From Stratiformator vulcanicus (GTDB lineage Bacteria > Planctomycetota > Planctomycetia > Planctomycetales > Planctomycetaceae), in contig NZ_CP036268.1 in NCBI RefSeq assembly GCF_007744515.1, positions 2,705,712-2,769,711 of the forward strand: DNA of 64,000 bases, read 5' to 3'. Position numbers and translations under genes: made by a program. Positions 34,812 to 46,893 of this stretch are shown here, piece by piece (positions within the stretch are counted from its first letter, which is position 1; the number at the start of each line of letters is the position of its first letter). Under the pieces are notes generated by a model that did not search any database, was not told the DNA's origin, and saw nothing but the letters and a program-made list of their open reading frames with translations.

Positions 34812-35705
34812 TCACCCCTTTTGCCGATAGCGACGGCTCGCTTCTTCGAGCAATTTGCGCTCTGACTTCGTCAGGCTCGCTTCGCCCTGCTCGCTGATCT
34901 TGGCGAGCGCGGCATCGACCTTTGATTCCAAGTCGTCTTCGGCTTCGCGCTCAGCGGCGTGTTCCGGGTCATGGACACGCAACTTGGGCTGCCGCTTGAA
35001 CCTTGGGATCGGAATCCCTCGGGGTAGGCCGTCCGAAATCCGCCAACCGCTGCGCTGGTAAAGGAAGGCGAAGCCGACGCTCGCCAGCGATGCGATCGGG
35101 ACGACGTTCGCGATTCCATCCGGACTGGACAACTCGAACAATGCGGCCAACACGTTGCCCGCGACAAACAACCCGACCAGCCAGCGGATTTCGATCGGAA
35201 TAATGAAGAACAGCAGAATTTTCTGACGTGGAAAATGCAGCGCGTAGAGCGTGACGACGGCCATCACCGCACCGGTCGCCCCGTACATTGGCCGTCCGGC
35301 GTCGTAAGCAAGGCCGAATAAGAAACCGGTGATGCCCGTGATCAGGACAGTCGCGAAGAAGAAGGTCGCGTATTCCCGAGAGCCATACATGCCCTCAAGA
35401 GTGCGACCGAACCACCACAAAAACAGAAGATTGAAAATAATCTGGAGCGGAGCGCTGATTTCGTGACAGAACGCATAGGTGACCAAACGCCAAATTTGGC
35501 CGCCCAGGATGTCCGTGGGGGTCAGGTCCAACCATTGTTGGGCCAGAGGCGCGATCCCCTCCTGGATATTCTGTGACGTGAGAATTTGCAGGACAAACAC
35601 GCCGGCAATGAGCGCGATCAACCACTTCGTCGCCGGATCGGTCGCGAAGAAATTTGCACCGCCCTGCGTGTCATCGCGGAGATATTCGCGGTCTTCGATT
35701 CCCAT
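34812..35705 (-). CDS. Rhomboid-family pseudoprotease with C-terminal LT-SER-RYRQ module
   Basis: The 297-residue protein has rhomboid topology: WRLVTYAFCH, then LQIIFNLLFLWWFGRTLEGMYGS, about six membrane helices. The catalytic serine motif GxSG reads GATG (Thr144). The catalytic His of the sixth helix, in a motif like AHLGG, is Ser206 (IASLAS), and the other common His nearby is Pro203. Both members of the dyad are therefore missing, so proteolysis is unlikely. The cytosolic tail (about 236-297) is charged and ends in VDAALAKISEQGEASLTKSE then RKLLEEASRRYRQKG, a module also found at the end of the M50-like protein at 43149-44132. It may bind or chaperone membrane proteins as iRhoms and derlins do. 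Confidence 0.85.
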   Translation of the reverse strand: MGIEDREYLRDDTQGGANFFATDPATKWLIALIAGVFVLQILTSQNIQEGIAPLAQQWLDLTPTDILGGQIWRLVTYAFCHEISAPLQIIFNLLFLWWFGRTLEGMYGSREYATFFFATVLITGITGFLFGLAYDAGRPMYGATGAVMAVVTLYALHFPRQKILLFFIIPIEIRWLVGLFVAGNVLAALFELSSPDGIANVVPIASLASVGFAFLYQRSGWRISDGLPRGIPIPRFKRQPKLRVHDPEHAAEREAEDDLESKVDAALAKISEQGEASLTKSERKLLEEASRRYRQKG

Positions 35706-41245: not shown

Positions 41246-42910
41246 TTAGCGATCCAGTGAAATTGTCGACAGACTTCCGTCGATCGGAGCACCCGCTTCT
41301 AAAGAATAGGTGGCATAGATGTTGAGAATGTCTTCTCGACACGCGAAATACGCATCGATGACATTGGGGTCCCACTGCTCATTTCGACCTTTCCGGAAAA
41401 TCTCCTCAATCTTTTGATTGGGCATTCCCTTTCGATAGGGCCGATCGCTCCCCATCGCGTCGTAGCCATCGGCAACAGCAAGAATCCGGGCCATGAGCGG
41501 AATATCGTCGCCGGCCAGCTTGTCGGGGTAGCCGGTGCCATCAAAGTTTTCATGATGGTTCCGGACGCCGGGCAAGATGTGCTGCAAGTTGCTCAGGCCC
41601 TTCAAAATGTTGTACCCGATCGTTGGATGGGCTTTGACGGCCTCAAACTCCGCGTCGGTGAGTCGACCCGGTTTCCGCAAGATGCGATCGTCGATCCCGA
41701 TCTTGCCGACATCGTGCAACAGGCCTGAGAGATAAATGTCTCGCAGGTCACCTTCGGGCAATTTCATGTGCTTGCCGATCCGCCGCGCGATCAACGCGAC
41801 ACGCTCGCTGTGACCGCGCGTGTAAGGATCTTTGGCGTCCAATGACGAAACGAGGGAACGGACAAACCCGATCAGGAGGTCCTGATTCTGCTGATACAGT
41901 TCGGTGTTGCGGACGTGTGTTCCCAGTATCGTCGCGACCGAATTCATGAAGCCGGCTTCAACGGTTCCGAATTCCTGTCCGTGTGTTCGATTGCAGCAAA
42001 AGACCCAACCCTTGCGGTGTTGGCCTTCTTGGATGGGGACGAGAATGAAATTGCTCAGCCGCGGGTAGTCGGCCCCCAGAAGCGTCTTGCCGACGTGGTT
42101 GCGAACGAGGGGCCTTGACCATTCGACGTCGGAAAACGACTCGATCAGTGTTTCAAGTTCCCGTGGTTCGAACGGCAAAACGCCGCGGGAATGAAGCAGA
42201 TTTCGTCGCGATCGATCATTGATCAGGATCAGACTTCCGCCCGCGTCGACCAGCGCGTGCAGCCGGCGGACACACAGATCGGCCAAGGACGTCGGCCCCT
42301 GTGATACCTGCAGATTGCGACTGAGGTCGTGTAAAAGACTGATCTCCTCGTACGTATGATCCAGTTGGCAGGTCACATGGTCGAGTTCATCTTCCAATCG
42401 CAATCTCGCCGAACGTCCCGAGAGGTGCTCTGCCGCGAGCGTGATGAGTCGCTCGACGACGTTTCCAGACAGAGCCTCGCATTCGTTCCAAAAATGACGA
42501 AGCTGTCGAGCGGACCAACCGGCCTGTGAGCCGGCGATGATCAGGTCAGCCGGCGGCTCGCAGCGCGTTACTTGAGCGACGGATGCCTTGGCTGACGGAA
42601 TGTATCCGAGCGCCGCATACCGTGTGCGATTCTCCACGCAAAATGGGACGGCATAAAAAACCATCCCCGCGTTGGTCTCCCACTTTTTCGGGTGCGTCAA
42701 TTGTTGCAGTTCCTCTCGGACGCAATCGGGAATCATCGGCGGAAGTTGCCCGGCCACTTCGACAACGCACCGACTATCGATGCGGACTGCGAAAAACGGC
42801 AAACCAGTGCAGGCCCGCAGTTCGTCGACCGTCCCCGCAACCTGTTCCGACGCGACGGCCGGGAGGTCGGACATGGAGATTTCTGATCGGACTACGGTGC
42901 CGAGCGGCAT
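41246..42910 (-). CDS. GAF-HD-GYP protein, putative cyclic-di-GMP phosphodiesterase
   Basis: The 554-residue cytosolic protein has an N-terminal region of unclear fold (1-185), a GAF-like domain (about 190-340: EISLLHDLSRNLQVSQG, LVDAGGSLILIND) and an HD-GYP domain. The latter is intact: RGHSERVALIARRIG, LLHDVGKIGIDDRIL, HHENFDGTGYPDKL and AVADGYDAMGSDRPYRKG. HD-GYP enzymes cut cyclic di-GMP, or related dinucleotides, to GMP using a bi- or trinuclear metal site. Its start is placed at ATG 42910; ATG 42874 is an alternative. It is convergent with the ketoacyl synthase gene. No GGDEF protein is in the window. Confidence 0.9.
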   Translation of the reverse strand: MPLGTVVRSEISMSDLPAVASEQVAGTVDELRACTGLPFFAVRIDSRCVVEVAGQLPPMIPDCVREELQQLTHPKKWETNAGMVFYAVPFCVENRTRYAALGYIPSAKASVAQVTRCEPPADLIIAGSQAGWSARQLRHFWNECEALSGNVVERLITLAAEHLSGRSARLRLEDELDHVTCQLDHTYEEISLLHDLSRNLQVSQGPTSLADLCVRRLHALVDAGGSLILINDRSRRNLLHSRGVLPFEPRELETLIESFSDVEWSRPLVRNHVGKTLLGADYPRLSNFILVPIQEGQHRKGWVFCCNRTHGQEFGTVEAGFMNSVATILGTHVRNTELYQQNQDLLIGFVRSLVSSLDAKDPYTRGHSERVALIARRIGKHMKLPEGDLRDIYLSGLLHDVGKIGIDDRILRKPGRLTDAEFEAVKAHPTIGYNILKGLSNLQHILPGVRNHHENFDGTGYPDKLAGDDIPLMARILAVADGYDAMGSDRPYRKGMPNQKIEEIFRKGRNEQWDPNVIDAYFACREDILNIYATYSLEAGAPIDGSLSTISLDR

Positions 42911-43148
42911 AGCAAGACCTGTGCATAGAGAGGATTCTCTACAAGCTAGGTCACGGCAGGCCCCGATGTTCTGCGAACGCAACGTATCGGCCGGAGTGTG
43001 TTCGCTTTAGGAACGCCGATCGATACAGCGAAGCGATTTGCGCCAATAGTCCGGTCGCGCGGACTGTGACACGTCTGCGGGCGACACCCGCGGAGAAAAC
43101 CTGCAATCTCAGCAAGAAACCGGTCGAAAGAAAATTTCGACTCAAGAT

Positions 43149-44132
43149 TCAGCGATCGCCCTGTTGCCGATACCGCGCTGATGCGCGGCGCAATCGACGG
43201 CGCTCTGATTCCGTCAAACCACGTAGTCCGCTTTCGTGAACTTTCGACAGAAGGCGGTCGATCTCCTGTTCGTCGAGTGCATCTCGTTCTCGACGCCGTC
43301 GCTCTCGCCGTGTGCGGCGATCTCGGAGCCAGCGTTCCATGAAATTAGGCTGAGCCGTCGGCTCGCCCGCACGCTCTTGCTCGAGACTGGTGTATCCGGC
43401 TGAAAAATCGTACCCGAGAAATGTTTCGTCAAACGTTTCACTGTCGTCGCTGCGTTCCACTCGCGGCCGGTTGAAGAGCGCGAGGTAGCCGGAGATCGCC
43501 AAAGCCCAAAGTTGGCCACACGCCAGCGATGCAATCGCGAGTCCGATTGAAATCGCAAAACCGAAATGGTTTCGACGCGCCGGGACCGTCTTCACTTCAG
43601 GAAGGCGAACGGACAGCAGCTTGGCTGCATCGAGGGGCCGCGCGGGAATGAGGTTCAACAGCAACAGCAACCAGTTGACATGAAAATTGATCAGGCAGAC
43701 TTCCGTGAATCCGACTGACGATCCGGCCTCGATCGGGAAGGTGAACGGATTCAGGCCGTCTTGCCAGACACCTTCGTGCAACACGGTCGGCAGGAAGGCC
43801 ACAACGGCTAGCGAATGCACGACATAGCCGCCCATCGCAACGGCCAAACGGGAGACAATGGTCGGACCGCCTTCGATGCCAGACCCTTCGCCGCAGACAC
43901 CAAACGACAATTCACGGACGTATCCGCCGGTCAGCCGCGCCGCGAGTGCGTGCCCAAACGTATGCACGGCGACCCAGAGGGCGTAGAATCCGAAGAAAGC
44001 TAGGCCCATTGTGAACCCGGGCAGACGGATCACCAAAATGGGGAGCAACAGTACTAAGACCCAACTCAGCCGGATCGGGACGCCGAAGAGCCGACCAATG
44101 CCGAACGTCCAACCTTCGACGCGTTCATTCAT
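43149..44132 (-). CDS. Site-2-protease (M50)-like pseudoprotease with C-terminal LT-SER-RYRQ module
   Basis: The 327-residue multi-pass protein has M50 architecture. The zinc motif HExxH reads HTFGH (His57-Thr58-Phe59-Gly60-His61), so the catalytic Glu is missing although both His remain. A later NLIPARPLDAAKLL (Asp168) corresponds to the NxxPxxPLDGG site, keeping the third metal-ligand Asp. Zinc might still bind but hydrolysis is unlikely. The cytosolic tail is strongly basic (RDRRTRRERRRRERD) and ends LLSKVHESGLRGLTESE then RRRLRRASARYRQQG, very like the tail of the pseudo-rhomboid at 34812-35705. ATG 44132 is chosen; an earlier frame start at 44189 is possible. Confidence 0.83.
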   Translation of the reverse strand: MNERVEGWTFGIGRLFGVPIRLSWVLVLLLPILVIRLPGFTMGLAFFGFYALWVAVHTFGHALAARLTGGYVRELSFGVCGEGSGIEGGPTIVSRLAVAMGGYVVHSLAVVAFLPTVLHEGVWQDGLNPFTFPIEAGSSVGFTEVCLINFHVNWLLLLLNLIPARPLDAAKLLSVRLPEVKTVPARRNHFGFAISIGLAIASLACGQLWALAISGYLALFNRPRVERSDDSETFDETFLGYDFSAGYTSLEQERAGEPTAQPNFMERWLRDRRTRRERRRRERDALDEQEIDRLLSKVHESGLRGLTESERRRLRRASARYRQQGDR

Positions 44133-44418: not shown

Positions 44419-46893
44419 ATGGCTCTTAACCGCTGTCCCGCATGCAAGGCATCAGTTCTCGACGACGATGCGACGCAGTGCCCGTTTTGCGGTGCTTCGA
44501 TGTCGGCATCGGCTGGTGGCACGACCTCCGGTAAGACGACTGCCGCGGCCTCGAAACCGCAACGGGCGCCGGCATCGCAGAAGAAAACAGCCAAAGCGGA
44601 TGACCCGTTTGGGTCTGAACTCGATCCGGACAAAGCGGCGTCCTCAGCGATCGCCTTGGCTCCCAAGCCGATGAAGGGCCGGCGACATGAGGTCGTTTGC
44701 CCAATGTGCGAGACGGTCGGTTTCGCTCCATCAAAGGCGAGCGGAAGCAACGTCAAGTGCCGCAATTCCGACTGCATGGTTCCTGTTTTCAAAGCGCCGC
44801 GTTTTGCGATCGAGCCGGAACCGGAACCCGAATCGAAGTCTTCCGGATCTGGAATCACGTTCATTGTCGGAAGTGCAGTATTGCTACTGGCAGTGCTCGG
44901 CGGCGCCGGTTGGTTCGTATTCGGTTCCGGCTCCAATAAGACGAACCTCGGCGATGTGCCACCAAACGTGCAGCCGGTTCCGCCGCTAACGACGGACGGC
45001 ATTAATAAAACGAACGGCGAAGTCAGCGAGAACCCAGAGACAAACGGAACTGGTGAGCCGACAAAGACGCCGGCGCAGATTCGAGAGGAGATTCTCGAAA
45101 GAACGCTGGCCCGCATTCCGGGAATTGCCAGGGACACATCTCAGAATCTTCGCAAGCAGGATCGTCGACGCGATGCAGCCCTCGCCTTTGCCGCCGCAAG
45201 CCGAGCCGATGGGGTGATGAATCAAATCGAAGCCTTGCGGGCGCTGACGCCTCCAATTCCGTATTTCGAGATTTCTCCGCTCGTCGCGTCTGCCTGGTCC
45301 AATCTGGAAGCCGGAGATCGCGATGCCGCATTGCCGCTCTTCACAAAGGCCGCCGAGCTTTCGGACGAAATTCCGCAGCGGGGGCCGAACGCCCTCGATG
45401 CGGGGATCGACCTTGCTGCGCTGGCAATTGCTTTGTCTCAGGATGATGTTGCCCGTAAGGCGCTCGAGAGCGTCCGCGATACGGCTTCTGGCGAACAAGC
45501 ACGCTACGTCGCAGATCGAGCCGAAGTCCTGTTTGACGGACGCTTCGACAAATCGAATCGCGTTGCGTCAGTCTGGCGAATGCCGGGTCCTGCTTATGGG
45601 TCAGTGGCCTATCGACTTGCCGGACACGGTGATACTGCCGCCGCTTACACATGGGCCGCGACGATTACCGATCCCGACGGCAAAATCGGCGCGATGTCTG
45701 CACTGGCGGAAGTGACAGCCTGTCCCTCCGACTCCGCGAACGATGTCGACCGACCGCAACTGTCGGACTTGACCACGTTGCTCGCCGACGCGAGTCCGGG
45801 AGTGCGCGCCTTCGTCCTGTCCCGGGCCGGACGTGTTGCGATCGCGACGGGAGCAAATTCGAATGTCGCGGAATTGGTCGCGGCCGCCCGCACAGCGGCC
45901 GATGACATCCCCGATGCGGACGCGCCGCAGGAACCGACCCTTCGCAGCTTGACCGCAGCGGCCCCTCCAAATCCTGAAGTGTATTTTCTGCGTGCGGCCG
46001 CTCTTGCAGAACTCGCGAAAGCCGAAGCCGATGCAGGCGATTCGACGCGGGCTGAGGCGGCTCTTGATCGGTTGTTCGCGCAATTGCGCGGCTCGACGCC
46101 CGCTCCGACAGTCCTCGCTGATTTCACGGATCGCCTCGAATCTGTCGGCACATTGGGTATGCGGTCACAACTGGCCTCCGAACTCAATATTTCTTCCGAC
46201 ACCGAAGCCCGTAACGCCGTCAACGATTTCCGGCGCAACCTGCGAACGGCGACAGAATACGCCAAGCAGCGAAGTACCCTCGCCGTAGACTTTCTGGCAG
46301 AGTTCGCGGAACAGAAAAACGCCGACTTCGCCCAGAAGTATTTGGTCGAGATGGCTTCGTCCGATGAACTCGGCGTGCAGGAACCGCTCTCGCGAGTCGA
46401 AGCGGGGTGGACCGCGGCGTCGCTTGCCGAGACTTGGGGGATGCCAGATATCGCTGCGGCAACTCGGCCGAATGCCCAAAAGCTGCCACGGCCTTGGGAA
46501 TTAGATGTCAGTGAGAAATCCGCTGAAGCAATGGCTGAACAGCAGTGGCGGCGGGCGGCCGAAGTCATCAACAAATCGGATGATGCGGTTGAAGACGGTT
46601 CGCGATGGCGCCTGGCCGCCGCGACAGCATTTGAGATCTACGAGCAAGCCGGGCTGAACGCGGCCCTCGACTTCACCCTGACCATCGAACGGGCGCACAT
46701 TCGGGAGGCCGTCCTCGTCCCCCTTTGCACTCATATCGTCAAACGGGAGGGGCCCGCCGCGTTGGAGAGTGAGTCGCAGACGCGACGCGTACTCCCGACA
46801 GACCGGATCGCGATGTGTTTGGGAATCGTGCGCGGCATTTCTGAATCAAATCAAAAGGACACTCCGGAAAATCCCGATGCGGAATCCGCCTGA
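44419..46893 (+). CDS. Large single-pass protein with two zinc ribbons
   Basis: The 824-residue protein begins with a zinc ribbon (CPAC near residue 6, CPFC near 21), an Ala/Lys-rich linker, a second Cys cluster (CPMC near 95, then CRNSDC) and an acidic stretch. A transmembrane helix follows (about 150-173, ITFIVGSAVLLLAVLGGAGWFVFG). The remaining 640 residues, presumably periplasmic, are helical and Ala-rich, with TPR-like spacing (ALAFAAASRAD, AALPLFTKAAELSDE, YFLRAAALAELAKAEADAGDSTRAEAAL). This fits a membrane scaffold with cytosolic metal-binding heads. No enzyme motif was seen. I know of no assigned function. Confidence 0.8.
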   Translation: MALNRCPACKASVLDDDATQCPFCGASMSASAGGTTSGKTTAAASKPQRAPASQKKTAKADDPFGSELDPDKAASSAIALAPKPMKGRRHEVVCPMCETVGFAPSKASGSNVKCRNSDCMVPVFKAPRFAIEPEPEPESKSSGSGITFIVGSAVLLLAVLGGAGWFVFGSGSNKTNLGDVPPNVQPVPPLTTDGINKTNGEVSENPETNGTGEPTKTPAQIREEILERTLARIPGIARDTSQNLRKQDRRRDAALAFAAASRADGVMNQIEALRALTPPIPYFEISPLVASAWSNLEAGDRDAALPLFTKAAELSDEIPQRGPNALDAGIDLAALAIALSQDDVARKALESVRDTASGEQARYVADRAEVLFDGRFDKSNRVASVWRMPGPAYGSVAYRLAGHGDTAAAYTWAATITDPDGKIGAMSALAEVTACPSDSANDVDRPQLSDLTTLLADASPGVRAFVLSRAGRVAIATGANSNVAELVAAARTAADDIPDADAPQEPTLRSLTAAAPPNPEVYFLRAAALAELAKAEADAGDSTRAEAALDRLFAQLRGSTPAPTVLADFTDRLESVGTLGMRSQLASELNISSDTEARNAVNDFRRNLRTATEYAKQRSTLAVDFLAEFAEQKNADFAQKYLVEMASSDELGVQEPLSRVEAGWTAASLAETWGMPDIAAATRPNAQKLPRPWELDVSEKSAEAMAEQQWRRAAEVINKSDDAVEDGSRWRLAAATAFEIYEQAGLNAALDFTLTIERAHIREAVLVPLCTHIVKREGPAALESESQTRRVLPTDRIAMCLGIVRGISESNQKDTPENPDAESA

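Follow-up and report, generated by a model that had tools for sequence, protein, structure and literature searches.

A site-2-protease homologue of Stratiformator vulcanicus with a replaced catalytic glutamate and a DUF6576 tail shared with a pseudo-rhomboid

Introduction

Among the rhomboids, iRhoms and Derlins are pseudo-rhomboids, with an intramembrane protease fold that binds partners but does not cut them. A counterpart among the site-2 proteases (S2P) is EGY3, a plant chloroplast pseudo-S2P without HExxH, encoded by a single gene and described as having a non-proteolytic role (PMC10978774, PMC9355673). The 2022 paper (PMC9355673) calls EGY3 the only pseudoenzyme homologous to S2P and places it in plants only. 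A word search of a 2024 review of inactive metallopeptidases (PMC11266112) returned no mention of M50 or S2P. No bacterial pseudo-S2P was found in the literature searched (subscription papers and preprints lay outside its scope), nor was anything relevant on planctomycete S2Ps or on M50 non-peptidase homologues.

In active S2Ps the Glu of HExxH is the general base, according to a review (PMC10202637), and the E44Q change in SpoIVFB is reported to abolish proteolysis while the substrate complex is still formed (PMC11486902). A second element, the PxGG motif, is described in the membrane-reentrant loop of groups I and III, a loop that presents the substrate in RseP (PMC4597795). The current study concerns a homologue in which both are altered, encoded in a stretch of 64,000 nt of Stratiformator vulcanicus (GCF_007744515.1, NZ_CP036268.1, positions 2,705,712-2,769,711, forward strand), hereafter the window; the protein is called the window S2P.

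Results and Discussion

The S2P gene and its motifs

The features of the gene are as follows (coordinates are those of the window).

43149..44132, (-) strand: putative pseudo-S2P (M50B-like) with a C-terminal DUF6576 tail, 327 aa
43950..43964, (-) strand: HTFGH, residues 57-61, replacing HExxH; catalytic Glu changed to Thr58 (ACG)
43884..43898, (-) strand: degraded substrate loop (membrane-reentrant), residues 79-83; consensus PLGGL, here VCGEG (column mapping)
43815..43829, (-) strand: degraded GPxxN membrane motif, residues 102-106; here GYVVH (column mapping)
43620..43655, (-) strand: NLIPARPLDAAK, residues 160-171; third metal-ligand Asp168 present, GG after the Asp changed to AA
43380..43415, (-) strand: linker motif GYDFSAGYTSLE, residues 240-251, conserved and intact (alignment, column mapping)
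43179..43289, (-) strand: DUF6576 tail, residues 282-318, a helical hairpin, intact (Pfam, model, column mapping)

The frame is uninterrupted between its ATG (44132) and its stop (43149), and its start agrees with the point at which the alignment of the relatives begins. Homologues were gathered in a census of 157 rows (141 from the window's family; some rows are partial at contig ends), of which 132 have H, E, H and D at the four catalytic columns and are called intact here, while 25 have lost at least one of these residues and are called inactive. Mapped onto the 132 rows, the window S2P has H57, T58 in place of E, H61 and D168, and the codons for His57-Thr58-Phe-Gly-His61 read CAT ACG TTT GGG CAC. 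An earlier note on this DNA had described HTFGH in place of HExxH with both His and the distant Asp168 retained, and the codons and column mapping bear this out. A second HExxH, the discovery of which that note had named as counting against a pseudoprotease, was sought in the frame and is absent; HTFGH is the sole H...H there. Beyond what had been noticed before, PxGG (P79V, G82E), GPxxN and the GG after Asp168 have been lost, a DUF6576 tail is present, and loss of the site recurs in relatives (see below).

Fold and loss of the catalytic apparatus

The Pfam M50B profile matches the window S2P at 27.3 bits, above its cut-off of 26, and the M50 profile falls just short (26.8 bits, cut-off 27.2); on the tail, DUF6576 (PF20216) scores 35.6 bits against a cut-off of 27.3. 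An AlphaFold2 model (pLDDT 87.3, 50 aligned sequences) has as its top match among solved structures mjS2P, 3B4R (Z 19.6, rmsd 3.5, 206 aligned residues); SpoIVFB comes next, its E44Q variant scoring Z 13.1, and RseP-type proteins reach about 10. The S2P family profile aligns with 3B4R at E 1.8e-30, including HExxH and the LDG region. No other fold comes close to the S2P scores among the structural matches listed, an absence that is in itself no proof. Chance homology is excluded and the protein has the S2P fold, so that the earlier description of an S2P-like protein without the catalytic Glu stands.

Compared with mjS2P (MJ0392, PDB 3B4R; S2P group III), the window S2P has the same fold and the same two His and Asp at the metal site, but lacks the catalytic Glu, the PxGG loop and the GG after the Asp, and has a DUF6576 tail added. 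SpoIVFB (PDB 8VJL/8VJM) shares the group III fold and a C-terminal cytoplasmic extension; it is, however, active and carries a CBS domain, whereas the window S2P has lost the Glu naturally and ends in DUF6576. The likeness to EGY3, also an S2P homologue lacking the catalytic motif, is one of kind and not of descent, as the window S2P is bacterial, belongs to a group with recurrent losses and has a different tail.

Since Glu, PxGG and GG are all gone, peptide hydrolysis by the window S2P appears very unlikely from its sequence. The kept metal ligands lend something to the idea that proteolysis persists through a rearranged active site, with Thr58 or some other residue in place of Glu. Thr is not chemically equivalent to Glu, however, changes also affect the substrate loop and the GG that follows Asp168, and Thr occupies the Glu column in just 1 of the 157 rows, that of the window S2P itself; a rearranged protease is highly improbable. 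Thr58 is thus not the conserved trait for which the earlier note had proposed to look. That note had also held that a Glu conserved in all near relatives would tell against a pseudoprotease. Most near relatives do keep Glu (131 of the 141 rows of the family), yet the conclusion survives, because the substrate-loop and membrane motifs are degraded too and other lineages have lost the site in different ways.

Decay of the membrane core beside an intact tail

Columns were taken as conserved where at least 80% of the 132 intact rows agree. By this criterion the membrane core has 31 conserved columns and the tail 21, of which the window S2P keeps 20/31 and 21/21, respectively (Fisher p=0.0016), and a similar disparity remains without the four catalytic columns (17/27 vs 21/21, p=0.0026). 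The eleven core positions lost are L50, S53, E58, P79, G82, L83, P103, N106, G169, G170 and G202. Loss in the core with an intact tail is a pattern that neither sequencing error nor even drift would fit. A sequencing or assembly error could otherwise be suspected from a Thr seen in one genome only, but the codon differs by two bases and there are ten further substitutions at conserved columns with no frameshift, so this explanation has next to no probability, in agreement with the earlier note, which had thought a simple sequencing error unlikely. The tail is not untouched in every inactive lineage, as the linker motif has also decayed in several of them (genera g29 and g73); linker and tail are incomplete in some intact rows as well (minimum 0/21).

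Repeated loss of the catalytic site in relatives

A homologue was found in 54 of 59 relative genomes, and a match was obtained in 146 of the 170 genomes of the window's family (G032, G122 and G124 by the tail alone; G155 and G185 stand outside the census). A single-protein scan of genome contigs with the window S2P as query found no relative. The inactive rows differ widely in what they have lost. Examples are QQFAQ in G017, where Ser replaces the Asp; HELSR in G003 and TEVVR in G007, both with Ala for the Asp; HAAAH in G037; HQxxQ in genus g29; and, in four rows of genus g73, HExTH, again with Ala for the Asp. Two further family genomes found by profile, G150 and G151, also lack HExxH and are additional to the 25. 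In L027, the S2P orthologue of G002, one residue is inserted within HExxH (HELFGH) and the other motifs are intact; it was scored as intact by its columns.

On an S2P tree built with the motif columns left out, the state must switch between intact and inactive 10 times or more, and 6 of these switches are forced by well supported branches. Catalytic loss therefore arose repeatedly and independently in this family. These losses, together with the plant precedent of EGY3, remove the ground for calling an intramembrane pseudo-S2P unusual, as the earlier note had done. A single inherited subfamily of inactive S2Ps was considered and rejected: a tree that forces 17 inactive rows of the family into one group is worse by 263 log units (p-AU 1.75e-90). 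A sister relationship of the window S2P to the inactive rows of genus g18 (L032, L126, L135) is not rejected (p-AU 0.81), and the two may for that reason have a loss in common, even though their residues are not the same.

The window S2P sits on a long branch (1.83). The median of the mean distances to 40 intact rows is 3.44 for inactive and 2.52 for intact rows, with a p of 2.7e-12 that is only a guide because the rows are not independent; the value for the window S2P is 3.44, a distance reached by 1 of 118 intact rows.

Genus g72 presents a different situation. No full-length DUF6576 S2P was found by single-protein search in any of its 12 genomes, and profile searches of five of them gave just short M50 and tail matches; the DUF6576 rhomboid is present in all 12.

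Selection and orthology

Pairs of inactive S2Ps from the same genus have NG86 dN/dS values of 0.09-0.29 (10 of 11 pairs computable), and intact congeneric pairs 0.04-0.33 (14 of 15 computable), the estimates being partly near saturation. The low values in the inactive pairs indicate purifying selection on inactive S2Ps in lineages other than that of the window, whose organism has no same-genus genome among those examined. Gene order was compared with that of 20 relative loci; the gene adjoining the S2P is the following.

41246..42982, (-) strand: HD-domain protein on the same strand as the S2P, a neighbour in 3/20 relative loci too

In genomes G077 and G007 the entire surrounding block is shared, with hisS, the HD-domain gene and the gene of the DUF6576 rhomboid among its members; G001 has the HD gene in common, and G003 and G100 share the two genes on the opposite side. 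From the shared block, the S2P genes of G077 (intact), G007 (inactive) and the window are positional orthologues.

A decaying pseudogene, with a recent loss of activity followed by drift, would account for the long branch and the degraded core, and the lack of a congener among the genomes examined leaves it some room. Against it stand the full-length open frame, the complete tail, the high-confidence model and the position in a conserved block; drift, moreover, should not spare one half of a protein. We consider a pseudogene quite improbable.

A second DUF6576 protein, a pseudo-rhomboid

DUF6576 has 77 matches in 40 genomes, all of them on S2P (35) or rhomboid (42) proteins, with one of the 42 rhomboid assignments weak (G048:C217, 52 bits). 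Exactly one DUF6576 S2P and one DUF6576 rhomboid occur in 31 of the 40 genomes. The name of the domain (PF20216) was not found in the literature searched. In the models of both proteins the tail consists of a long and then a short helix. The topology of SpoIVFB and GlpG is established, and by analogy with it the tail is probably cytoplasmic. In the S. vulcanicus genome there are exactly two DUF6576 matches, the window S2P and a rhomboid in the same window.

34812..35705, (-) strand: putative pseudo-rhomboid, the second DUF6576 protein, 297 aa
35271..35282, (-) strand: rhomboid GxSG motif reading GATG, catalytic Ser144 changed to Thr
35088..35090, (-) strand: rhomboid catalytic His position 206, reading Ser

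The window rhomboid thus has neither the catalytic Ser nor the catalytic His of a rhomboid protease (S144T, H206S), and in its second helix Gln takes the place of His88; the three replaced residues are each invariant in 68/68 intact rhomboid rows. It keeps 38/50 core and 14/14 tail columns. Its model (pLDDT 88.0) matches GlpG (Z 18.7), iRhom1 (16.2) and Derlin-1 (15.2), and the structural matches include GlpG S201T, entered as an active-site mutant, which has the same change as the window rhomboid. The genome has three more rhomboid matches and further M50 matches, so that intramembrane proteases are not scarce in the cell.

Of the 74 rhomboid rows, 6 are inactive. Inactive rhomboids occur in the window, in G020 and in genus g34 and, outside the family, in G043 and G051. 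All 14 DUF6576 rhomboids examined from genus g34 (L238, L266, L273, L276, L369-L378; ten of them beyond the 74) are inactive, having lost Ser or His to many different residues, and the S2Ps of this genus, those of the ten further genomes included, look intact. The 74 genomes with a rhomboid row comprise 20 with an inactive S2P (19 with an intact rhomboid and one, the window genome, with an inactive one), 43 with an intact S2P (5 with an inactive rhomboid) and 11 without an S2P row. Among these 74, only the window genome has both DUF6576 proteins inactive. The idea that an inactive S2P and an inactive rhomboid exclude each other was examined and not accepted as significant: inactive rhomboids are confined to few lineages, and the pattern may accordingly reflect common descent and not exclusion.

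Proposed function

The tail appears to be the part that selection has kept, and we propose a membrane scaffold acting through it. As we read the combined evidence, the window S2P is, with fair probability, a non-catalytic pseudoprotease whose retained function lies in the cytoplasmic tail, through a partner shared with the DUF6576 rhomboid. The S2P-fold membrane protein would no longer hydrolyse peptide bonds. Its membrane domain would serve as an anchor, and at most as a docking place for transmembrane partners that are left uncut. The retained function would reside in the cytoplasmic C-terminal part, made up of GYDFSxGYTSLE and the DUF6576 helical hairpin, which may bind a partner common to the DUF6576-tailed rhomboid.

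What counts against the anchor reading is that His57, His61 and Asp168 have been kept; a mere anchor has no need of them, and other inactive lineages have lost them. They could instead bind zinc in a metal-dependent, non-proteolytic protein, either a metal sensor or a substrate-binding decoy that regulates live M50 proteases. Retention of all three ligands, unlike in most other inactive lineages, speaks for this, and the other M50 matches in the genome are available for it to compete with. The PxGG loop that would present a substrate is lost, however, which argues against a decoy, and ligands are no proof of binding, since the SpoIVFB maps are described as lacking zinc density despite all ligands being present (PMC11486902). 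On balance we think a metal-dependent role unlikely, though less so than decay of the gene, and prefer the scaffold.

The iRhoms and Derlins, whose intramembrane protease fold serves for binding and not for cutting, offer an analogy in the way they work. The window rhomboid shares their fold; the S2P fold is unrelated to it, and an iRhom-type extra domain is absent. A broader and more doubtful suggestion is that the DUF6576 S2P and rhomboid of the Planctomycetaceae form a paired membrane system, in which the common tail would be essential and proteolysis optional, lost repeatedly in either partner and here in both. Such a system, if real, would parallel the iRhom/Derlin principle in bacteria, with two protease folds that are unrelated to each other.

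A pseudo-S2P is known from plants; the present case differs in being bacterial, in having arisen repeatedly and in sharing its tail with a pseudo-rhomboid. Bacterial orthologues that have lost the site many times independently provide natural replicates, with intact and inactive versions of one gene in related species, some of them in the same gene block. This makes testable what intramembrane proteases do besides cutting, and it points to the uncharacterised DUF6576 tail common to two unrelated intramembrane protease folds.

Other genes at the locus

The signature of the HD-domain protein at 41246-42982 is one that we take to be HD-GYP-like. On the other side, a zinc-ribbon protein of 824 aa (44419-46893, + strand) is divergently transcribed from the window S2P, and its homologues adjoin the S2P in G077, G003 and G100.
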